From the IMG/VR virus record IMGVR_UViG_3300030115_000006, positions 1-24,370 of that record: a stretch of 24,370 nucleotides of DNA; one strand, written 5' to 3'. This DNA is from a virus. Below, piece after piece: positions 9,379-22,457 of the stretch; positions within the stretch are counted from its first letter, which is position 1, and every line of letters starts with the position of its first letter. The notes beneath the pieces are model-generated. The model was not told the DNA's origin, made no database searches, and worked only from the letters and a program-made list of their open reading frames with translations. The position numbers and the translations under genes are program-made.

Positions 9379-11379
9379 ATGGCAATAACAGTAGCACAAT
9401 TGCAAGTGAAAGTAGGCGGCGATACTAGCGAAGCCGAAAATAAACTACGCGGGCTAAACTCACAAGTCAATGAAAGCGGCGGTTTCTTTAAGAACGCGCT
9501 ATCATCGGCTTTAGGTTTCGCTGCTGGTGCTGGTGCTATTGCGGTAGTCGGTAGTGCTGTTAGCGGACTGACAGATTTTATAGGCGGGTCTATTCAAGCT
9601 GGTATTGATCAAGAAAAAGTCATGACGCAAACAGCGCAGGTTATCAAATCTACCGGCGGCGCGGCGGGTATGACGGCTACACAAATTGGCGATATGGCAG
9701 ACTCGCTAGCACGTACCACACCATTTGCTGATGACGTGACGCAATCGGCTGAAAACATGCTACTAACGTTTACCAATATCGGTAGTACGGTATTCCCTCA
9801 AGCCACGAAAACCGTACTTGATATGTCACAAGCGTTAGGGCAAGATACAAAGTCGAGTGCAATTCAACTGGGTAAGGCTCTCGATGATCCAATCAAGGGC
9901 ATCACGGCATTGTCGCGAGTCGGTGTGACATTCACACAATCACAAAAAGATAGCATCAAAGCGATGATGCAACATAACGATACCGCAGGCGCGCAAGGCA
10001 TTATTTTGAAAGAACTATCACGCGAGTTTGGCGGATCAGCTGAGGCCGCTGGTACAACGTTCGCGGGTAAAATGTCGATCCTCAATAACACGATGGATCA
10101 GACGAAAGAAAAGATCGGACTTGCGTTAATACCGGTGCTTGAATCGCTTATGAGTGGCATACAATCTAAGGTATTGCCGATATTTGATAAATTTGCTGCA
10201 TGGTTTATGAAAGACGGCATACCCGCTATCAGCAAATTAGGATCATTAATTGAAGGGGTACTTGTTCCTGCACTAGGGAATATATTTACATGGATCGGTA
10301 ACAACATTATTCCTGTCCTAGAAAAATTTGGGACGTTTGTTGAAACAAAGGTGATGCCGGCAGTTACGCAACTGACTACGATCATCGTTGCTCAAGCCGT
10401 TCCCGCATTTGAGCATTTCTGGACAACGGTTGTCATGAAACTGCTGCCCATTTTTGAGGAATTAGCGACGGTCATTATCACAAAAGTAGTGCCTATTCTC
10501 GCCAACATCGCTACATTTGTCGTAACCCAACTCGTCCCCGCACTCATGAAACTGTGGAATCAGATAGCGCCTGTCTTGATACCGATTTTACACGAATTAG
10601 CGACGGTGATTACCACTAAAATCATGCCTGCTCTAGAGAAAATCGCCAACAAAGTTATGGGTGAACTGTTGCCTTCACTGATGAAACTCTGGAACCACAT
10701 TGAACCCGTCCTGATACCGATCTTGAATATCCTTGGTTGGGTTTTGACGCAAGTTATCTTTCCCGCTATCGGTATTGTGATTGGTATCATTGGTAATATC
10801 ATTGGCATATTGATTGATTTGATATCCCACATTGTCGATCTGATTACATGGTTCTTTGATTTAGCTGATGGTATTAAAAATGCCGTTGGCGGGGCTTTAG
10901 GAGACATTGGCGATTTTATCGATAAGGCCACAAAGTTTTTTACGGATATGCCCGCAAAGTTATTAGATTCTGGTAAGAAATGGATACAAGGACTAATAGA
11001 CGGCATAAAGTCTATGGCTGGATCAATCAAGGATGCCGTAAGTAAGACGATAGGCGACGCGGTACATAATATACCGGTGATCGGTGGCCTTATCCCTGGA
11101 TTTGCAATGGGTACCAGTAGCGCACCTGGTGGCATGGCGATAGTTGGCGAAAACGGGCCGGAATTAGTGATGTTACCGCAAGGATCGCAAGTTATCCCTA
11201 ATAATCAGACACGCAATTTAACTAATAGTACCAACATACCCGCTATGCAACCATCAAATAATGGTCAGCAAATGATCTCGCAGACGATAACCATCATGTT
11301 AGACGGTAGGCAAATAGCACGAACGGTGCTACCTCATATGGCTAGCGAGATACGACTAGCCACCGGAATTAGGAGCTAA
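9379..11379 (+). CDS. Tape measure protein (TP901-type)
   Basis: This 666-residue protein would set tail length and pass through the tube on DNA ejection. At the usual 1.5 Angstrom per residue it predicts a tail near 100 nm. Seen in order: an N-terminal helix (VAQLQVKVGGDTSEAENKLR); a hydrophobic segment at about residues 45-75; the TP901-type core (MLLTFTNIGSTVFPQ, then TKTVLDMSQALGQDTKSSAI and LDDPIKGITALSRVGVTFTQ); and a long stretch of hydrophobic helical repeats from about 250 to 470. In those repeats LWNxIxPVLIPIL and the preceding ELATVIxTKxxP occur more than once. A second membrane-like stretch lies at 450-495, and the tape-measure end motif VGENGPELVMLPQGSQVIPN at about 588. Its ATG abuts the chaperone stop. 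Confidence 0.93.
   Translation: MAITVAQLQVKVGGDTSEAENKLRGLNSQVNESGGFFKNALSSALGFAAGAGAIAVVGSAVSGLTDFIGGSIQAGIDQEKVMTQTAQVIKSTGGAAGMTATQIGDMADSLARTTPFADDVTQSAENMLLTFTNIGSTVFPQATKTVLDMSQALGQDTKSSAIQLGKALDDPIKGITALSRVGVTFTQSQKDSIKAMMQHNDTAGAQGIILKELSREFGGSAEAAGTTFAGKMSILNNTMDQTKEKIGLALIPVLESLMSGIQSKVLPIFDKFAAWFMKDGIPAISKLGSLIEGVLVPALGNIFTWIGNNIIPVLEKFGTFVETKVMPAVTQLTTIIVAQAVPAFEHFWTTVVMKLLPIFEELATVIITKVVPILANIATFVVTQLVPALMKLWNQIAPVLIPILHELATVITTKIMPALEKIANKVMGELLPSLMKLWNHIEPVLIPILNILGWVLTQVIFPAIGIVIGIIGNIIGILIDLISHIVDLITWFFDLADGIKNAVGGALGDIGDFIDKATKFFTDMPAKLLDSGKKWIQGLIDGIKSMAGSIKDAVSKTIGDAVHNIPVIGGLIPGFAMGTSSAPGGMAIVGENGPELVMLPQGSQVIPNNQTRNLTNSTNIPAMQPSNNGQQMISQTITIMLDGRQIARTVLPHMASEIRLATGIRS
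10441..10740 (+). repeat. Internal repeats in the tape measure gene
   Basis: Two tandem-like modules encode the same pattern. ATTAGCGACGGT is exact at about 10458 and 10597, followed by codons for VIxTK. LMKLWN followed by PVLIPIL is encoded at about 10547 and 10681. The spacing is about 135 bases, so one 45-residue module seems to have been copied. Such changes would alter tail length. Confidence 0.65.
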
Positions 11380-12259: not shown

Positions 12260-15200
12260 TTGAGTTATAAGCAGGAAGTCTTAAACGATACGCCGGACGT
12301 ATACCTTAGACTTGGCGAAAGTAGCGGTACGGTAGCTACCGATGTAAGCGGTAACGCTCGCAACGGTACATATAACGGTACTGGTGTGACATACAGCACT
12401 ACCGGCGCGTTAACGACTGATGCTGATACCGCTGTAACTCTTGATGGCACAGCGGGTAAAATCGATTTACCAGTAGGCTACAATCCGAGTGGTGCGGGTA
12501 TCACGGTAGAGGCGTGGTACTATATTGCGCTGTCAACCGATGTGTCAACATCCCCACGTCTGGTAGCCAACGCAAAGACGAATACGACCTTTACTGGTTT
12601 TCAGCTTAGACTTGATTCCGCTTCTGGGTGTGCATTCCAGATCGGATCGGGTTCTACATCGAGTACCGTTTTAGCCACGGCGGGCGCGGTGACGGCGGCG
12701 ACATGGCATCACCTTGTTGGTACCTATGATTCTAGTACATTGCGATTATATCAAGATGGCGTTCTGCTCAATACCGCCGCGTATACGGGATCGGTGACGG
12801 CCTCGGCAACACAAGTATCAATAGGTAGACTGATAACCCCTAGTGGCAACTTTTTTAAAGGTGGCATTGACGAGGTAGCAATCTATCCTAGTGTGCTAAC
12901 GTTGGCACGCATTAAAGAGCATTATCGTACCGGTGCTATCGCACGTGTGGTACCAGCCACAATGTATCTAGGTGTAAGTGGTACCACATCTACACGTACC
13001 GTTACGCCGGCAACGCTGGCATTACTGGCAACCAGTACCCGATCCGTTCCTAGCACCATCGCCACGTTCGCGACCAGTAAACGAACTGTACCAGCAACCA
13101 TCGCCACACTTGCCACGTCTACACGCACGGTACCTCCTACATTAGCACTATTAAAAACCGCTAATAGAGTAGTACCAGCGACGCTATCATTAGGAACATC
13201 GGCTAATAGTCGTACTGTACCCGCTACACTGGCAATGATTGCTACTAGTAACCGGATCGTACCGTCAACAGTAGCGACGTTAGCTACATCCACACGTATA
13301 GTACCTAGTTCGCTTAGTGCCACGTTTACCAATAGCCGATCCGTTCCCGCTACACTCGCTACACTGGCAACTAATAGCCGATCCGTTCTTAGTACAATTG
13401 CTACATTAGCCACTAGTAATCGCGTGGTACCAGCATCTTTATCGTTAGGGACTTCAGTAGTTACGAGTACACGAACGGTACCCGCTACGCTGGCAATGGT
13501 AGCAACTAGTAACCGTGTCATACCGGCAACTATGGCGACGTTGGCAACCAGTACCCGATCCGTTCCTAGTTCGCTAAGTGCCACATTAACCAATAGCCGA
13601 TCCGTACCGGCTACGCTGGCATTATTAGCCACTGCATCACGTATTGTACCAACCACATTAGCAACAATGGCTACAAGTACCCGTACTATACCCGCTACTT
13701 TGTGGCTGTCATCTGTTGCGGTATCAACTAGAACGGTACCAACTACATTAGCGATTACCGCATACAATGCGAGGATCGTACCGTCAACAATTGCGACTAT
13801 TGCTACAACTAAAAGACAAGTACCAGCGACGTTATACCTGTCAGGTAGCACGGTATCGGCATATAAAGCGGCGGTATTGACTGATACCCCACTAGCCTAT
13901 TATCGACTAGCTGAAACAAGCGGTACGGTAGCGACTGATGTAAGCGGTAACGGCTACAATGCTACGTATACCAGTACTGGTGTAACCTATGGTGTTACAG
14001 GTGCGATGGTCAATGAATCAAACACCGGTATCACATTAAACGGTACTACCGGACATGTTGATTTACCCGCCGGCGTTTCATTAAATGGATTAGCGGCATG
14101 TAGTGTAGAAACGTGGGTTAAAATACCGGCGGCGTTAGTGGCAGTATACCCACGTATTGTGGCTAACAGTTATACCGACACGTCACATCAAGGCATACAA
14201 TTATTCTTGCAAGATGTAGGCGGCATTTTTAGCGTTGGCAATGGTACCATTACTGTATTTACTACGCTCGCAGGGCCGTTACCGCCTAACATCTGGCACC
14301 ATCTCGTAGGCACCTATGACGGCATCTACGTCCGGCTCTACATCGACGGGACGCTCATCAACCAGCAGGCGTTAACAGGGACCATTGGCACCGCGGCGTA
14401 TAACCTGTCTATTGGCTATAACCCCGCCTACAGTGGTGATTACTATGCCGGTAGTGTCGATGAAACCGCTATCTATGGCTATGCGCTATCACTCACTCAG
14501 ATACAGAACCACTACATAGCAGCTACCACAAGTACAGCGACGTTAAGTGGCGGCTATACCGTCTCTATCGCAGGTGTGGCATTACCAATTCAGGCCGGTA
14601 CACTGTCAATCAATAAGGCATTAGGGCAACGTTCCACATGTTCATTTACGGTATGGGATACTACCGGACTTAATCACTTTGTTGAAGGTTCACAAGTCAC
14701 AATAACAAATCAGAACGGCGTGACAGACTTTTACGGCTTTGTGCAATCGTCTACAGAAGTCAGGCCAGGATACGGATCGTTATTACTGCATACTATCCAA
14801 TGTATGGATAGCGTGTATCTTGCTGATAAGCGATTGATAGCAAAGACGTATACAGCCATGCAAGCCGGTAAGATCGTTCAAGATATTTTAACGAACGTAT
14901 TATCTTTAGAGGGCGTGACGGCGGGTACGATATCAGCCGGTCCTACCGTACCATTATTAACCGTTAACTATGCAACAGCATCACAGGTTATCATGTTGTT
15001 AGCAGAGAGATCCGGCTATTGGTGGGATATTGACGAAAAGAAACAATTGCAATTTCAACCCGCTACCGGTACCATTGCACCATTTACCGTTAACAGTAAC
15101 AAAGACTTAGAAGCAACTACTGTAAGCGCGGTACGTTCTAGCGATTTATACCGCAATCGTCAATACATGCGTGGCATCAACGCTCCAACATCTAGCCAAA

Positions 15201-15973
15201 CGGAAACACGCAAAGGTGATGGTACGACTAAAGCGTTTCTTATGTCGTACCCGCTATCGCAAGTGCCAACAATCACGCTAAACACGGTAGCCCAAACAGT
15301 CGGCATAAGCGGTGTAGATACGGGTAAAAACTACTATTGGAGCGCAAACAGCAACGTTATAGCCCAGGATACGGGCGGTACCACGCTGATAACGACTGAC
15401 ACGTTGAGCGTGACCTATATCGGTAGTTACGCTGCTATTGTCGAAAGTGACGACTATTCAGCACAAGCCACGCGAGCTGTATTAGAAGGATCTACCGGCA
15501 TAGTAGAAGCAATTGAGGATGTGCCAAACAGTAGGTCACTTGACGACGCGATCCAAGATGCAAACGGTAAGCTAATGCGGTTTACCGTCAATGGCGTTAC
15601 CTTATCATTTGACACGCTTAAGACCGGCCTTAAGCCAGGGCAACTATTAACCGTTACCGCGCCTGAACATAATCTAACTAATGCTCAATTACTCATTGAA
15701 TCGGTACAGGTGTATGATCGCGACCCCGTGCTAGGCTATCACGTCAAGGCGATGTTAGGACCGGTAAATACATCATGGGTACAATACTTTGCTAATCTCG
15801 CTAATAAACCGGCTGTACTCAATAACTTGAATGTTGGCAACAGTGGCACGATTGCGATACCCGTATCGGTATCTGATTCAACCACGTGGGGGGAAACATC
15901 AACAGTAACGGTATACGCATGCCCTATATGCGGAACTAGCACATTTTGTGGAACGGCGGTATTTGTATGTTAG
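12260..15973 (+). CDS. Large tail-tip protein: LamG - 14-residue repeats - LamG - hub-like domain
   Basis: The 1237-residue protein starts at TTG 12260, 9 bases after AAGGGGG. Region 1 (residues about 1-222) is a LamG/concanavalin-like domain (TPDVYLRLGESSGTVATDVS, WHHLVGTYDSSTLRLYQDG, FFKGGIDEVAIYPSVLT). Region 2 (231-533) is 21 tandem units of about 14 residues, consensus VPATLATLATSTRT. Region 3 (534-757) is a second LamG clearly duplicated from the first (YYRLAETSGTVATDVSGNGY, WHHLVGTYDGIYVRLYIDG, YAGSVDETAIYGYALSLTQI). Region 4 (about 758-1195) resembles siphophage tail-hub proteins: GTLSINKALGQRSTCSFTVW, YGFVQSSTEVRPGYGSLLLH, LLAERSGYWWDIDEKKQL, LKPGQLLTVTAP. The tip ends YACPICGTSTFCGTAVFVC. 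LamG domains often bind sugars, so adhesion to the host surface is a likely role, by inference. Confidence 0.85.
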   Translation: MSYKQEVLNDTPDVYLRLGESSGTVATDVSGNARNGTYNGTGVTYSTTGALTTDADTAVTLDGTAGKIDLPVGYNPSGAGITVEAWYYIALSTDVSTSPRLVANAKTNTTFTGFQLRLDSASGCAFQIGSGSTSSTVLATAGAVTAATWHHLVGTYDSSTLRLYQDGVLLNTAAYTGSVTASATQVSIGRLITPSGNFFKGGIDEVAIYPSVLTLARIKEHYRTGAIARVVPATMYLGVSGTTSTRTVTPATLALLATSTRSVPSTIATFATSKRTVPATIATLATSTRTVPPTLALLKTANRVVPATLSLGTSANSRTVPATLAMIATSNRIVPSTVATLATSTRIVPSSLSATFTNSRSVPATLATLATNSRSVLSTIATLATSNRVVPASLSLGTSVVTSTRTVPATLAMVATSNRVIPATMATLATSTRSVPSSLSATLTNSRSVPATLALLATASRIVPTTLATMATSTRTIPATLWLSSVAVSTRTVPTTLAITAYNARIVPSTIATIATTKRQVPATLYLSGSTVSAYKAAVLTDTPLAYYRLAETSGTVATDVSGNGYNATYTSTGVTYGVTGAMVNESNTGITLNGTTGHVDLPAGVSLNGLAACSVETWVKIPAALVAVYPRIVANSYTDTSHQGIQLFLQDVGGIFSVGNGTITVFTTLAGPLPPNIWHHLVGTYDGIYVRLYIDGTLINQQALTGTIGTAAYNLSIGYNPAYSGDYYAGSVDETAIYGYALSLTQIQNHYIAATTSTATLSGGYTVSIAGVALPIQAGTLSINKALGQRSTCSFTVWDTTGLNHFVEGSQVTITNQNGVTDFYGFVQSSTEVRPGYGSLLLHTIQCMDSVYLADKRLIAKTYTAMQAGKIVQDILTNVLSLEGVTAGTISAGPTVPLLTVNYATASQVIMLLAERSGYWWDIDEKKQLQFQPATGTIAPFTVNSNKDLEATTVSAVRSSDLYRNRQYMRGINAPTSSQTETRKGDGTTKAFLMSYPLSQVPTITLNTVAQTVGISGVDTGKNYYWSANSNVIAQDTGGTTLITTDTLSVTYIGSYAAIVESDDYSAQATRAVLEGSTGIVEAIEDVPNSRSLDDAIQDANGKLMRFTVNGVTLSFDTLKTGLKPGQLLTVTAPEHNLTNAQLLIESVQVYDRDPVLGYHVKAMLGPVNTSWVQYFANLANKPAVLNNLNVGNSGTIAIPVSVSDSTTWGETSTVTVYACPICGTSTFCGTAVFVC
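12263..14530 (+). repeat. Duplicated LamG-encoding segments (12263-12925 and 13862-14530)
   Basis: The two LamG-like domains match in DNA as well as protein. An AGCGGTACGGTAGC string, followed by GTAAGCGGTAAC, occurs near 12333 and 13918. The WHHLVGTYD and DE-AIY motifs appear in the same order at about 150 and 200 residues into each domain. They differ enough to imply an old duplication. The repeat block lies between them. Confidence 0.75.
12950..13858 (+). repeat. Tandem repeat block, 21 units of about 42 bp, with a 261-bp super-repeat
   Basis: Each unit encodes V-P-x-[ST]-[LIV]-x-x-x-A-T-[SN]-x-R-x; most have 14 residues, a few 15-17. Units at 13188-13448 and 13449-13709 form a higher-order copy: the same six-unit order with an offset of 261 bp. 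For example, GTACCCGCTAC[AG]CTGGCAATG occurs at 13217 and 13478, and AATAGCCGATCCGT lies near 13331 and 13592. The Gly/Ser/Thr-rich units probably form a beta-structured or extended stalk between the two LamG domains. Confidence 0.9.
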
Positions 15974-16441: not shown

Positions 16442-17434
16442 ATGACATACACACCGACTACTTGGGTAAACGGTACCACACCAGCATCAGCCGCTAATAT
16501 GAATAACATTGAAACGGGTATATCCGGTTTGGATAGTTCCCGATTGATTAAAACTGGTGATACCATGTCCGGTGCATTAGGTATTTCCATGCCAGGGAAT
16601 ACCGTCAACGCGCTTACCATGACATTCCCTAGCGTACCAGCGTCTAATCAATCAATTATGTATGCCACCGTGACAGCCGATTCAAGCGCGAGGTTTAGTC
16701 TATCAATCCGCTCTGATGGGTACGGCATGCTTGGATTAGGATCAGGGACAGCCGCTAGCGGGTATATCTACGGTACAGCCAGTGGCTTACGCACGGATAA
16801 CGATATCACCACATCTACCAACGTAAACGCTGCAAACATAGTCGCGTCTGGTAATCTTGTCTGTGGCACTAGCAGTGCAATATTTCTCGGCAATCTGATG
16901 ATCTGTCAAGCGTACTTTGCCGTGCGTAAAAATGACGGCACAAAACTATTTGAGTGTCGCGCTAATGGCGATTTCACCATATCCGGTGTCACGTTGCGGA
17001 CTGCTGCTGGTTCAAGTAGTGGCTATGGCACCGGTGGTGTGTTTGACACATTCGACATAGCAGAGACGTACACAACTGACATGATATACGAGGCTGGCAC
17101 CGTGTTAGAGCCACAAGGCGACGTATACACGCTATGCAGAGAAGATGGATCGGCGTTTGCTGTTGTGGTATCAGAAGGCGGCGGCGTGCTACTAGGACCG
17201 AATGAAGATGACGTTAACGAGGTAGCCGTTCCTATTGCATTGACGGGCCGCGTAAGGGTTTCAACTAGTGAGGATATACAGTCGCGTCAATGGGTGACGA
17301 GTACTAGCGACGGCAAAGTAAGAGCTATTAAGAAAGGCGAAACGGCGTTTACTTTAGGCTACGCTTTGCACCCTACACACAATGGTAAAGTAGGCGTATT
17401 CTTGCGGCCTTGCATGATGACAGTAAAGCCATGA
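16442..17434 (+). CDS. Tail fibre / receptor-binding-like protein with G2-like C-terminal domain
   Basis: The 330-residue protein opens TPTTWVNGTTPASAANMNNI (followed by ETG), the N-terminal signature of many phage tail fibres (W-x-x-G-x-x-x-x-A-x-x-x-N-x-I-E). Residues 34-200 are a Gly/Ser/Thr-rich shaft with short GTASG turns. The C-terminal part (about 201-324) has FDTFDIAETYTTD, VAVPIALTGRVRVSTSED, WVTSTSDGKVRAIKKG and FTLGYALHP. It resembles the chaperone-like module found at the end of fibres (peptidase G2-type family). I see no sure catalytic site, so self-cleavage is not claimed. AAGGAGATCA lies before ATG 16442. Confidence 0.7.
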   Translation: MTYTPTTWVNGTTPASAANMNNIETGISGLDSSRLIKTGDTMSGALGISMPGNTVNALTMTFPSVPASNQSIMYATVTADSSARFSLSIRSDGYGMLGLGSGTAASGYIYGTASGLRTDNDITTSTNVNAANIVASGNLVCGTSSAIFLGNLMICQAYFAVRKNDGTKLFECRANGDFTISGVTLRTAAGSSSGYGTGGVFDTFDIAETYTTDMIYEAGTVLEPQGDVYTLCREDGSAFAVVVSEGGGVLLGPNEDDVNEVAVPIALTGRVRVSTSEDIQSRQWVTSTSDGKVRAIKKGETAFTLGYALHPTHNGKVGVFLRPCMMTVKP

Positions 17435-17793
17435 GCATGCCACGCAAGCAGCAAAACTTAACACGAATATCTCTTGACGCGATAGCTGAAAAAACAGAGA
17501 GTAACGCCGATCAGTTATCACTACTAGCAACACTCGTAAGTAAGATCGCCGATCAGGTTTCTACGTTAACCGCTTCAGTACAAGTTAATATCACCATGAC
17601 CACAAATACGATAGAACGGCTGGCAAAGTTAGAGGCACGTATCGATAAAACAGAAGCGGTTATGCAAGGAATGCTAGCAACAAAATTGAATCAAGGCTTT
17701 GAATGGAATAAGCAGTATGCCGTGTGGGTAGTCGGTATCATAACCGTTATCCTGAGTGCTTTAATATCTGGCACAGTACACATAGGTAAGTGA
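17431..17793 (+). CDS. XhlA-like coiled-coil membrane protein, lysis-associated
   Basis: The 120-residue protein has an amphipathic, coiled-coil-like N-terminal half (LDAIAEKTESNADQLSLLAT, IERLAKLEARIDKTEAVMQG) and one C-terminal membrane segment (YAVWVVGIITVILSALISG). This is the layout of XhlA, the membrane-bound partner that helps phage or PBSX-type lysis genes work. It lies just before the endolysin candidate. I chose ATG 17431, which overlaps the previous stop as ATGA. An in-frame ATG lies 21 bases upstream inside the fibre gene. Confidence 0.65.
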   Translation: MSMPRKQQNLTRISLDAIAEKTESNADQLSLLATLVSKIADQVSTLTASVQVNITMTTNTIERLAKLEARIDKTEAVMQGMLATKLNQGFEWNKQYAVWVVGIITVILSALISGTVHIGK

Positions 17794-17800
17794 GGACACA

Positions 17801-18814
17801 ATGAGACAAGTACCAAACTTAGTACACATTAGCGAATTTAGTAAAGGCTCCAATGGTGAGCAATTTAACGGGACATGTACCGAGGCCAGCGCGGCCATGA
17901 TCCTAACAGCCGCTAACGGGCTAGCAAATGATTATCAGTCAGTCGTAGATCTGATGATCAGCATACGTGATGTAATGTTTCAGGCTGGTACTGCAAGTGC
18001 AAACGGCGCGGCTACGTTTGCTAACATCGCTAGCGAGTTACGCCGGCGTGGTGCGGATATTGACACACAATGGGATTATCAAGGCGATAGTTTACCGCAA
18101 GATTGGATCGGTTACTTACGCGCTAATGCTGGCATAAAACCGATCATGTTGCAATTAGCCAATGCACAAGCACTTGTAAACGTCTCAGGTACTGACGAGG
18201 ATGTAGGCGTACACTACCACGCATTAACGGTATTAGGTGTGACTGATACGGGCTACATTGTAGGCGATCCTAATAATCCTAATGTCGTTAACGATACCGA
18301 CATATACCCGCTTTGGGCTTTAGAGAATGCGAGCGTATGTGCGTTAATCGCATTGAACGTTAAGGCACAACCACAAGAGGTAACACCTATGGCTACAGTA
18401 GCGACCGTTCCCGATGGTTGGCATGATGACGGTAACGATACCTTAACTGCTCCTAGTGGATGTATCGTGACTGGTGGCTTTCGAGAGTACATCGTAAATC
18501 ATCCCTGGGATGCCGCCGATCAACCGCGTGTAAATGTACAATCGTTTGGAGATACCCGCCGTCAAGATTTTAATTTCAGTGTTTTATATGCGAACGTTGC
18601 CACACATGCGCTATGGTTAGCCGGCGGCAATACTGAAATGCAAAGACGACTAGAAGATAGCTTAACCGCTAATCAACAGATCGTACAATTACAAGCAGAA
18701 CTAGACGCATTGAAAGCGCAAACCGCGCCGATCCCTGTAGCTGATAAACAGGCACAAGAGGCCGCCGCCGCGTTAGCGGTGTTAGTTACCTACATCAAAG
18801 GGGTAGTTAAATGA
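17801..18814 (+). CDS. C39-like cysteine peptidase, candidate endolysin
   Basis: The 337-residue protein has the C39-type papain-like catalytic set in order: GTCTEASAAMIL (Cys26), HYHALTVLGV (His140) and GDPNNP (Asp156), with Gln21 in position for the oxyanion hole. No signal peptide is present, so export would rely on a holin, as for usual endolysins. It lies between XhlA-like and holin-like genes. Residues about 204-250 (GWHDDGNDTLTAPSGCIVTG, then FREYIVNH-PWD) form a second small domain reminiscent of sequences in other Chloroflexota phage lysins, possibly a wall-binding module. The C-terminus (277-320) is a coiled coil. The substrate is inferred to be a cell-wall peptide. GAGG precedes ATG 17801. 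Confidence 0.7.
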   Translation: MRQVPNLVHISEFSKGSNGEQFNGTCTEASAAMILTAANGLANDYQSVVDLMISIRDVMFQAGTASANGAATFANIASELRRRGADIDTQWDYQGDSLPQDWIGYLRANAGIKPIMLQLANAQALVNVSGTDEDVGVHYHALTVLGVTDTGYIVGDPNNPNVVNDTDIYPLWALENASVCALIALNVKAQPQEVTPMATVATVPDGWHDDGNDTLTAPSGCIVTGGFREYIVNHPWDAADQPRVNVQSFGDTRRQDFNFSVLYANVATHALWLAGGNTEMQRRLEDSLTANQQIVQLQAELDALKAQTAPIPVADKQAQEAAAALAVLVTYIKGVVK

Positions 18815-19068
18815 AACCAGGATACTTAACAACAGAATTTTATGTATCGCTGTTAACCTACCTAGTCGCTATAGTCGGCTTGTTTGGCGTACATATCGCT
18901 AATGCCGACGCAAGTATACAAGCTATCGCTAGCGTGGCATCGCTGGTAGTATCAGCAATTACCAGCATGTACTACACACATAGCCGTACATCATTAAAAG
19001 CTAATCTTATTAGCAATATGTCTATGTTGGCAGTTAGCCCAACCCCTACACCACGTCCTGTGGTCTAG
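18811..19068 (+). CDS. Holin-like small membrane protein
   Basis: The 85-residue protein has two hydrophobic segments (YVSLLTYLVAIVGLFGVHIA and IQAIASVASLVVSAITSMYY) joined by a short loop with Asp, and a positively charged tail (YTHSRTSLKAN). This is the class II/III holin layout. The stop of the endolysin candidate overlaps its ATG (ATGA), and AAAGGGG lies upstream. It would make the membrane hole that releases the lysin. It has a Pro-rich C-terminus (SPTPTPRPVV). Confidence 0.75.
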   Translation: MKPGYLTTEFYVSLLTYLVAIVGLFGVHIANADASIQAIASVASLVVSAITSMYYTHSRTSLKANLISNMSMLAVSPTPTPRPVV

Positions 19069-19081
19069 GGAAGGGTACACG

Positions 19082-21088
19082 ATGATCCGTAAGCTTTTAG
19101 CGGCTCTCGCAGTAATGATATTGCTTATTGTTGCTACCGTATATGCAATCAAACCAACATCAGCACAGGCCGCCGCGCCGGTTTCTTACTTTCGTGGTAT
19201 CAATTTGTTTGGAGCGTGGCAAGGCGGGTACGGTGGTACCGATACGTTCGCCACAAATGCTGATCTTGATTACTATCATTCTAAGGGCCTTGACTGGTTT
19301 AGGGTACCGCTCCGTTGGGAAGATTTACAGACCAGTCTAAACGCGCCACTTGATCCTACCTACATCGCTAAAATGGATGCTTTGGTCAAGGCCGCCGGTA
19401 TGCGAGGTCAACATATATCATTTACCGTCATCAATCAAGGCACCTACAACGGTAACAATATTGGTTCATTACAAGTACCAGTAACCGCGTTTGTGGATAT
19501 GTGGTCAAAGCTAGCCACGCATTACCACAATAATACCGCTATCTATGCCTATGATCTCGCTAACGAACCCTGGCACGCGGTAAACTGGCATGCAACAGCA
19601 CAGGCCGCTATCAATGGTATACGCGCTATTGATGCTAGTAAGCCGATCATAGCGGAGCCTCTTGATAACCAGCCTTTTAGATATGACAGTAGCTTTACCG
19701 GCTATAGCGGCGGTAGCATATGGTACGCTGCTCATATTTATGGCGACGTATGCGGTGATCCTAGTGGTTGGGGTCAATATGCAAAGACATATAGTACCGA
19801 TTGCGGATCGCCGGATCTGATGATTAACCGCGTCAAGCCGTTTGTCGATTGGTGCCACGCTACCGGTAATGTATGCGTTGCTAGCGAGTACGGCATACCA
19901 GGGAACTGGATATCAGGTGATGCTAACGGCGTACAATGGGGAACGCCACGCGCCGATCAAAGTCAATACAATAGCATGCTAGATAATCTGTTAACATACT
20001 TAGATGCTAACGGGATATCTGGTAACTATTGGGAAGCCGGCGCGTATGGCGACATTAACAGCGCGTCATCAGTTAACAGTGTAGACGCTCCACAAATAGC
20101 GGTACTCGCTAGTCATCCATCGCATATCACATATAGCTATGCTGATGATTTTAACGCGCCATTTGATGCTACAAAATATTCGACATGCTACCGGTGGGCT
20201 TGTAGCGGCGGGTGGAATGCGGAACTAGAACGCTATACGACTACTCAGATTAGCACCCATGACGGCGTACTTGACCTGAAAGCCGAGCAAAAAGGCATTA
20301 TAGCGCATAACATATCTTATGCGTATCAGTCGGGAATGATCACCACCGCCGATCATTATGCGTACTTGTACGGCGTGACTGAAGTGAGATTCAAAGTTCC
20401 TCACGGTACGGGCTATTGGCCGGCGATCTGGATGTTAGCGGAGAACGGACAATCAACTACAGAATTAGATCTTATGGAGAACATAGGAGATAATGACATT
20501 CATAGTGGTATGCATTGGATAGATAGCGCGGGCAATCATAAGCACTTAGGCACCACCTATACCGTACCTAATCTCTCAAATGACTATCATACTATTAGTG
20601 TGGATTGGCAAGCCGATCATGTGGCCTTTGCTCTTGACGGTGTGGAATACTACCGTGAAACCGATACCACACATATACCCCATACACCTATGTACTTGTT
20701 AGCTAACCTCGCTGTTGGCGGTACGTGGCCTGGCAATCCTACGCCGTCTACTGTATTCCCAGCGAGTTTGCTGATAGACTATATCCACGTCAATACCGCC
20801 ACCGGTACCGTCATCACTGGTACACCTACACCAGTACCTACAAGCACGATAGCACCTACCAATACACCACCATTGCCAACGGTAACACCAACGTTAGTAC
20901 CACCGACTAGCACGCCTTTACCGGTGCCAACAGCGACAATACCACCACCGACTAGTACACCATTGCCAACACCAACGGCAACCATAGCACCTACCAATAC
21001 ACCACCATTGCCTACACCTATTGCATGCGTTACTCAGGTGATAGACTTTGCTAACTATCATGAAACCATCACCATATGCCCTAAGTAA
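19082..21088 (+). CDS. Secreted GH5-GH16 fusion glycoside hydrolase
   Basis: The 668-residue protein has a signal peptide (IRKLLAALAVMILLIVATVY, cut near SAQA-A, residue 31). Residues about 36-340 are a GH5-type TIM-barrel: FRVPLRW (Arg74), DLANEPW (acid/base Glu162), AAHIYGD (His218), ASEYG (nucleophile Glu269) and NYWEAG (Trp317). Residues about 350-570 are a GH16-type beta-jelly roll: YWPAIWM (445-451) and the catalytic ELDLME (Glu461, Asp463, Glu466). Then follow a Pro/Thr-rich linker (about 580-646) and a 20-residue tail with two cysteines. Both catalytic sites look intact. GH5 and GH16 members cut beta-glucan-type polysaccharides, so host capsule, matrix or environmental glucan is the likely target, by inference. 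It is the last gene of the late operon. AGGGAAGGG lies before ATG 19082. Confidence 0.9.
   Translation: MIRKLLAALAVMILLIVATVYAIKPTSAQAAAPVSYFRGINLFGAWQGGYGGTDTFATNADLDYYHSKGLDWFRVPLRWEDLQTSLNAPLDPTYIAKMDALVKAAGMRGQHISFTVINQGTYNGNNIGSLQVPVTAFVDMWSKLATHYHNNTAIYAYDLANEPWHAVNWHATAQAAINGIRAIDASKPIIAEPLDNQPFRYDSSFTGYSGGSIWYAAHIYGDVCGDPSGWGQYAKTYSTDCGSPDLMINRVKPFVDWCHATGNVCVASEYGIPGNWISGDANGVQWGTPRADQSQYNSMLDNLLTYLDANGISGNYWEAGAYGDINSASSVNSVDAPQIAVLASHPSHITYSYADDFNAPFDATKYSTCYRWACSGGWNAELERYTTTQISTHDGVLDLKAEQKGIIAHNISYAYQSGMITTADHYAYLYGVTEVRFKVPHGTGYWPAIWMLAENGQSTTELDLMENIGDNDIHSGMHWIDSAGNHKHLGTTYTVPNLSNDYHTISVDWQADHVAFALDGVEYYRETDTTHIPHTPMYLLANLAVGGTWPGNPTPSTVFPASLLIDYIHVNTATGTVITGTPTPVPTSTIAPTNTPPLPTVTPTLVPPTSTPLPVPTATIPPPTSTPLPTPTATIAPTNTPPLPTPIACVTQVIDFANYHETITICPK
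20818..21030 (+). repeat. Pro/Thr linker repeats in the glycosidase gene
   Basis: The linker DNA is built from short direct repeats. One 29-base unit, ATAGCACCTACCAATACACC and on, occurs exactly at 20849-20877 and 20984-21012. A second unit, CACCGACTAG(C/T)AC, lies near 20901 and 20945. The encoded PTxTPxPTxT linker is the kind seen in Chloroflexota and other secreted hydrolases. Confidence 0.8.
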
Positions 21089-21093
21089 GTACA

Positions 21094-21157
21094 GCCTTTA
21101 GCACGCGCTAAGGCACGATATAAGCACCGCTAATCATCATAGATAGGCGGTGCTTAT
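21094..21157. terminator. Tandem hairpins between convergent genes, probable bidirectional terminator
   Basis: Two hairpins follow the glycosidase stop (21088). The first pairs GCCTTTAGC (21094-21102) with GCTAAGGC (21107-21114), one base bulged, loop ACGC. The second pairs ATAAGCACCGC (21120-21130) with its exact complement (21147-21157) around a 16-base loop. The flanks are AT-rich on both sides but without a long T run, so strength is uncertain. Confidence 0.65.
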
Positions 21158-21185
21158 GCTTTATATTGGAGCGGTCTATATGTAG

Positions 21186-22457
21186 TTATTGATCGGTAGT
21201 ATCAGTCGCCTTAGTCGATGCTAACAGATATTCTTGTACCGTGCTATGCAGTTTATTGCGTTCGTCTAAGGCTTTCAATACAGCCGGCAAAGGACACGCA
21301 TACATCGTGCCGAACTTGTACCCTTGACCCAACGAACGGGCTAAGGTAGTCGCGTCATCTTTAGTACATTGACCATCTGATAAAGCGACTATACCCGCGC
21401 TATTGATCCAACCACCACGCAATGCAACGCCGCTCTTGGTTTCTTTTTTGCCGCTGCTATCCACACGGTATACCGATGTTACCGGCGTGATATCAAGTGC
21501 TGACAGCATCGCCTTATAACCGGTTTCGTTGCCAGTAGTTGATGCTTTAGACGGCTTCTTAGATGCTGCTAATGAACCATCTTGCAAGGCACTAAGGAAC
21601 GTCATCATAACGGCTTTTAGTTCTCCTAATTCGGTAACTATCGCGTTCGTTGATTCATCGCTTTTCGCTTTTACATCGCTAGTAAGCGCGTTCTTAAAAT
21701 CTAATTGCAATTGCTTGATCCGCTGCTCCTCATCCTTCTGTGATTGCGTTACGGCTGGTTTACTCAAAATATTCATAGCTGCTACAAACTGATCCCAAGC
21801 CTCTGTAAAGGGCATATCCTTATTGCCTATCCCTTTGAGGATAATACCGCCGGTACGTTCCTGGTGTTTACGTGCGAACGTGTACCAGTCGGCTAACGGT
21901 TTTTTAGTCACATCATGGATGATATACGCCGTAAATGTTACGAGTAAACCACGTATGATTAACTCAGATACTGTGCCAAAGTGAGGAATAGGCAACAGAT
22001 CAATAGGCGGCGCGTTCTCAGGTATTTTTAAGAATGTGCGAGCAAACACCATTGTAACGGTATAACCGTCAGCAAAGTAGACGAATTTGGCATAAAAGGA
22101 AAACAATCTAGCCTGTTGGGTATCGTTTCGAGTATGCGATAACCGCGCCATTTCACGGGCTAACGGCGCGGCATAATCGGAGATAAGAAACGATAACACA
22201 ATAGCCAAAGCGAGGATACCGGATATCACATCACCACGTAAAGCCGATTGAATGCTAGGATAGGCAAATAGATACATGCCAAAGAATGACATAACCGCCA
22301 TTGTTACTACCGTCACTACACTAATACGTGCTTTATCTTCCTGTAGCGTTACTTCTTTTTCTCCAAAGAATGATCGGCGTACCGTTTCAATAACGCCTAT
22401 ATGCTCACGCTCTACACGCGGTACTATCGCCGCGTCACCTGCCAATATTTCAGACAT
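21186..22457 (-). CDS. Membrane protein with coiled coil, unknown function
   Basis: This 423-residue minus-strand gene is convergent with the late operon and divergent from the HTH gene. The cytoplasmic N-terminus (about 1-42, charged) precedes predicted membrane segments near 45-67, 77-95 and 162-182, plus a weaker one at 123-140. A long charged helical, coiled-coil-like stretch follows (about 235-292), then a soluble C-terminal part (about 310-415; ALRGGWINSAGIVALSDGQC, ARSLGQGYKFG). No enzyme motif is recognised. GGAG lies 9 bases before the ATG. The position apart from the late genes, next to a regulator, suits a lysogenic-conversion or superinfection-exclusion role, but this is a guess. 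Confidence 0.75.
   Translation of the reverse strand: MSEILAGDAAIVPRVEREHIGVIETVRRSFFGEKEVTLQEDKARISVVTVVTMAVMSFFGMYLFAYPSIQSALRGDVISGILALAIVLSFLISDYAAPLAREMARLSHTRNDTQQARLFSFYAKFVYFADGYTVTMVFARTFLKIPENAPPIDLLPIPHFGTVSELIIRGLLVTFTAYIIHDVTKKPLADWYTFARKHQERTGGIILKGIGNKDMPFTEAWDQFVAAMNILSKPAVTQSQKDEEQRIKQLQLDFKNALTSDVKAKSDESTNAIVTELGELKAVMMTFLSALQDGSLAASKKPSKASTTGNETGYKAMLSALDITPVTSVYRVDSSGKKETKSGVALRGGWINSAGIVALSDGQCTKDDATTLARSLGQGYKFGTMYACPLPAVLKALDERNKLHSTVQEYLLASTKATDTTDQ

Follow-up and report, generated by a model that had tools for sequence, protein, structure and literature searches.

The final gene of the lysis cassette in a 24,370-base stretch of soil-phage DNA from IMG/VR (the whole stretch that we analysed, hereafter the window) encodes a 668-residue protein with a GH5 and a GH16 glycoside hydrolase domain behind a predicted export signal. 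Our best explanation, to which we assign a probability of about 0.6, is that this protein is a phage-encoded, Sec-exported endo-β-glucanase of the late (lysis) cluster, which would strip host surface glucan around lysis. Most of the known sugar-cutting enzymes of phages are parts of tails, and glycosidases of soil viruses are usually interpreted as carbon-cycle genes. Here, the same GH5 module that a sister phage has built into its tail is found in a two-domain, predicted exported enzyme in the lysis cassette of the window.

Results

The gene (19082..21088, + strand) starts with ATG. An earlier, sequence-only reading of this DNA had proposed a GH5–GH16 fusion, and Pfam bears this out, with PF00150 matching residues 37–322 (84.7 bits against a cut-off of 23.5, E=1e-23) and PF00722 matching residues 386–552 (71.7 bits against a cut-off of 22, E=7e-20), both far beyond chance. 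The GH5 catalytic domain extends over about residues 35–350 (19184..20131, +), followed by the GH16 catalytic domain at about residues 353–571 (20138..20794, +). All five catalytic residues that had been described as intact are present. E162 and E269 belong to NEP and E-Y-G motifs with aligned counterparts in RBcel1, whose E135Q variant carries NQP at the column of E162, while E461, D463 and E466 form the motif E461-L-D463-L-M-E466, an E-x-D-x-x-E arrangement that aligns with Thermotoga laminarinases. Sequence searches of the PDB returned RBcel1-type endoglucanases for the GH5 half (4ee9, E=1.5e-32), RBcel1 being its nearest solved structure, and the laminarinases 4dfs/3azx for the GH16 half (E=1.5e-29). 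Foldseek, run on an AlphaFold2 model built from 14 sequences and of moderate confidence (mean pLDDT 65), matched RBcel1 with a TM-score of 0.75 and GH16 laminarinases with 0.66, both by target length. Among NCBIfam models, EglC and BglS were nearest to the GH16 half, then ExoK, all scoring under their curated cut-offs; of these, EglC and ExoK are endoglycanases of rhizobia.

Behind the GH16 domain, a Pro/Thr-rich stalk leads into a C-terminal tail bounded by cysteines (C649...C666; 20807..21085, +), modelled as a low-pLDDT stalk and a predicted β-hairpin at residues 650–665. The GH5 domain contains four cysteines, compared with none and one in the two tail-protein versions described below, and these extra cysteines together with the stalk fit a protein life outside the cytoplasm, in an oxidising exterior. 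Since the glycoside hydrolase domains are of glucanase type and no peptidoglycan hydrolase domain was found in the protein, it is not a SAR or signal-peptide endolysin.

The N-terminus, MIRKLLAALAVMILLIVATVYAIKPTSAQA-AAP, shows a basic start, a hydrophobic core of ~19 residues and an AxA site at residues 28–30. Judged by inspection, without a dedicated predictor, residues 1–33 thus have the hallmarks of a Sec-type signal, which we place at residues 1–30 (19082..19171, +), with probable cleavage after SAQA30. We inspected 21 GH16 and 13 GH5 ORFs of viruses, and a clear signal peptide was seen in a single one, from record L218, the number of which points to an isolate genome.

The window contains a tailed-phage late module with terminase, portal, capsid, tape measure and tail proteins. 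Its 330-residue tail fibre (16442..17434, +) lacks a GH5 domain. A 127-residue protein with one C-terminal transmembrane segment, as read from its sequence (17410..17793, +), separates the fibre from an endolysin-like protein of 337 residues (17801..18814, +), the stop of which is overlapped by the gene for a holin-like protein of 85 residues with two transmembrane segments (18811..19068, +). The GH5–GH16 gene follows 13 nt downstream, with a strong GGGAAGGG ribosome-binding site in the gap, and a long hairpin, a possible terminator, lies behind it (21119..21157, +; z = -4.7 for 21089–21185). The placement noted earlier, last of the late genes and after a holin, therefore holds. The label holin was given from position and hydropathy, as the protein has no family match; its positional counterpart in the sister phage G089 matches PHROG holin families. 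The lysin-like protein combines an N-terminal Cys/His/Asp peptidase-like part, assigned to a putative peptidase class solely from the conserved C26, H138/H140 and D156, with a C-terminal domain common to the lysins of related phages. It has no meaningful match in phages, plasmids, the PDB or Pfam, the PDB giving a weak match to a β-agarase module (E=0.04).

Convergent with the GH5–GH16 gene, on the other side of the hairpin, is a gene for a 423-residue membrane protein (21186–22457, −) with no family match and no relative among the loci of related phages. Further upstream, a tail protein of 1237 residues (12260–15973) has two LamG domains that flank an extended array of 'RTVPATLATLATS'-type short repeats; in G089, repeats of this kind are located in a separate 615-residue protein (L213:10798–12645).

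The GH5–GH16 gene has a codon-usage correlation of 0.83 and a GC3 of 0.44, both inside the range spanned by the structural genes of the phage. Because of this, and because the GH5 module also occurs in other phages, contamination at a contig join, a concern attached to the sequence-only reading, is unlikely. The junction between holin and hydrolase is seen in one assembly: no second contig crosses it, and the near-identical contigs obtained from other samples are confined to the left part of the window and stop short of the lysis genes (at positions 9770, 7791 and 12279). A benefit to a lysogen, which had also been considered, found no support, as, apart from a small Cro/C1-type HTH, nothing related to lysogeny, such as an integrase, was recognised in the window, and a pattern-based, non-exhaustive scan of 84,980 species genomes with the capsid profile gave neither a prophage relative nor a host. 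A Chloroflexota-type host was a guess from the Pro/Thr stalk alone and is not claimed.

An alignment scan for GH5 domains in 2.9 million viral contigs returned two close matches only, and a second, tighter scan gave both again. They belong to two soil phages, and both lie inside tail proteins. In G088 (IMGVR_UViG_3300029902_000001), the GH5 domain, 55% identical to ours, is part of a tail-like protein of at least 1142 residues with a LamG-like part; GH5 and LamG are all that this phage has in common with the window, and its connection to the host of the window phage is indirect. In G089 (IMGVR_UViG_3300015024_000006), the domain is 50% identical and sits in a 972-residue fibre (PHROG tail fibre), composed of a GH5-containing unit and a full-length, 46% identical homologue of the window fibre. 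Outside these two, identity was about 35% or less in everything searched, with bacterial genomes probed by short peptide patterns only and chromosomes barely covered. Since the closest GH5s sit in tail proteins, the GH5 half resembles a depolymerase module of phages that here takes an exported form. In a tree of 16 GH5s, with thin bacterial sampling, the window, G088 and G089 share one clade (100/100).

The GH16 half is closest to proteins of bacterial plasmids (37–41% identity, the best being 41% in Shinella), viral contigs reaching up to 38%. These viral relatives were matched by profile-type queries for each domain where whole-protein queries had failed: exact-peptide scans of viral and genome collections with the whole protein gave no match, nor did a whole-protein search of 47 records of related phages. 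Among GenBank phage records, none reaches 80% coverage of the protein. GH5 and GH16 were found together at no other locus among those examined, so that the same two-domain order, which the sequence-only reading had suggested looking for in phages, did not recur. At the level of titles and abstracts, we found no prior report of an exported GH5–GH16 phage enzyme.

We regard G089 as a sister phage because its late genes and those of the window occur in the same order (terminase, portal, tape measure, tail proteins, fibre, lysin), with identities of 52% for the terminase, 43% for the portal, 57% for the tail protein MTP and 35% for the lysin. It was the only phage detected in a scan for kin with a lysin of the window type. 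A capsid search of viral contigs revealed a large family (41 members in one search and 93 in another, of which 80 were kept). No GH16 was found in the records of these capsid relatives that we searched, many of which are fragments. PF00150-type matches were found in four, above the cut-off in G020, G022 and G025 and weak in G065. The proteins of G020 and G022 are ~320-residue clan GH-A members encoded directly upstream of the lysin, without a signal peptide, while that of G025 has 1126 residues with GH39- and GH5-like parts. The recurrence of clan GH-A hydrolases beside the lysin (G020 and G022, larger in G025) points to host-coat degradation as a habit of this lineage.

Other variable elements were observed in the same family. 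Its lysins exchange catalytic N-terminal domains (peptidase-like, amidase, GH25) on one C-terminal domain of no known family (17801–18814 in the window; L057:2127–3155; L072:1278–2357; L213:8372–9355). The capsid relatives G025 and G037 encode small proteins (L060:15875–16507; L078:17507–18256) in which Pro/Thr-rich stretches are combined with similar C-terminal domains rich in Cys, that of G025 having a hydrophobic N-terminal segment. In G032, a 447-residue protein (L091:12683–14026), the start of which resembles pectate-lyase-like tailspikes, is encoded in a variable region flanked by baseplate and lysin genes, which hints at a site of depolymerase exchange.

Discussion

The use of GH5 in tail proteins points to a host surface glycan as its target, and the exported two-domain version in the lysis cassette suggests a diffusible form that is used late. 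The GH5–GH16 gene would be expressed late, and its product would leave the cell via the host Sec machinery during virion assembly and spread into the envelope or biofilm matrix. There, GH5 (β-1,4 type) and GH16 (β-1,3 or 1,3-1,4 type) would cut one host surface glucan, presumably the same that is attacked by the tail-bound GH5 in other phages, with GH16 adding a second bond specificity. A matrix loosened in this way would unblock lysis and virion release and uncover neighbouring cells. The enzyme thus plausibly acts on host extracellular glucan, as the sequence-only reading had it, and stripping of the host coat is its most likely role, ahead of a role in soil carbon or a benefit to a lysogen. 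We further propose, tentatively, that one GH5 depolymerase module is switched in this lineage between two formats, an entry tool tethered to the virion and a diffusible enzyme secreted around the time of lysis. If true, the secreted GH5 would be a phage public good, stripping the host coat for progeny and neighbours, through a format switch within one family. A change from tail to secreted form or the reverse would both be compatible with our data.

A different origin, compatible with the same function, is that a secreted GH5–GH16 enzyme of the host was taken whole, the tail GH5s having come from the same pool of host genes by separate captures. The export signal and the Pro/Thr stalk follow the architecture of bacterial secreted proteins, and the GH16 half has its closest relatives on bacterial plasmids; however, codon usage is fully phage-like, and plasmid records cover at most 46% of the protein. 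We consider such a capture possible, at clearly less than even odds. This also bears on the earlier description of the enzyme as built like a bacterial secreted β-glucanase, of which the predicted exported two-domain format stands, whereas the GH5 domain proved closest to those in tail proteins of soil phages.

It is unlikely that the gene is an auxiliary metabolic gene, digesting plant or fungal β-glucans of the environment to provide sugar for the infected cell, a role that has been suggested for other glycoside hydrolases of soil viruses. GH5 and GH16 are classic families for such polymers, an active viral GH5 from soil is on record (PMC6786970), and the predicted export would fit; but the gene stands at the end of the lysis cassette, a stage at which extra sugar would be of little use to the cell, and the nearest GH5s are in tail proteins, where the host surface is the target. 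We find it slightly less probable still that the N-terminal signal remains uncleaved and anchors the enzyme to the infected cell's surface, where it might, for example, remove the coat or block superinfection by destroying a glycan receptor. The signal could be such an anchor, as residues 2–22 form a helix in the AlphaFold2 model, and receptor destruction would explain a cell-side version in this phage, given that its relatives attack the same glycan. Yet a clear AxA site follows the hydrophobic core, and the genomic position suggests late expression, which would be late for superinfection exclusion. That the protein is a virion component despite its signal, a tail depolymerase like the GH5-carrying tail proteins of its kin, is very improbable, as its 668 residues contain GH5 and GH16 only and no tail or fibre family, export conflicts with cytoplasmic virion assembly, and the gene lies downstream of the lysis genes.

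The window enzyme can be set beside several known systems. The endo-1,4-glucanase RBcel1 (4ee9) has the GH5 fold and both catalytic glutamates in common with the window enzyme, but it is a single-domain protein, about 30% identical to our GH5 domain, and not from a phage. Likewise, the laminarinases 4dfs and 3azx, as well as EglC and ExoK, share the GH16 jelly roll and the ExDxxE active site, but they have no GH5 fusion, and the laminarinases are about 29% identical to the window domain in fold alignments. Phage-encoded GH16 β-glucanases are found in the Sinorhizobium/Rhizobium phages phiM12, phiM19 and RHph_X2_24; in contrast to the window enzyme, these have 403–405 residues (two examined), with no signal peptide seen and no GH5, and lie outside the lysis cassette in the records examined.

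A precedent for export is the signal-peptide endolysin Lys44 of Oenococcus phage fOg44, a late phage enzyme that uses host Sec export, in a literature where depolymerases are described as virion parts (PMC6116005). Lys44 is a peptidoglycan lysin, whereas the window enzyme is a predicted glucan depolymerase. The soil viral GH5 endomannanase, the activity of which has been shown, was reported as a carbon-degradation gene (PMC6786970); it resembles our case, by its description, as a GH5 enzyme of a soil virus. Our case points to the host coat as the target of at least some of these soil viral 'carbon' enzymes. The closest comparison remains with the tail GH5s of G089 and G088, which have the same catalytic motifs as the window enzyme, G089 also having the same fibre–lysin–holin order. 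Those domains are held within a tail protein, without signal peptide or GH16, whereas that of the window is free, predicted to be exported, fused to GH16, enriched in cysteines and encoded behind the holin, so that one module in a fixed and a free format makes a direct test possible.
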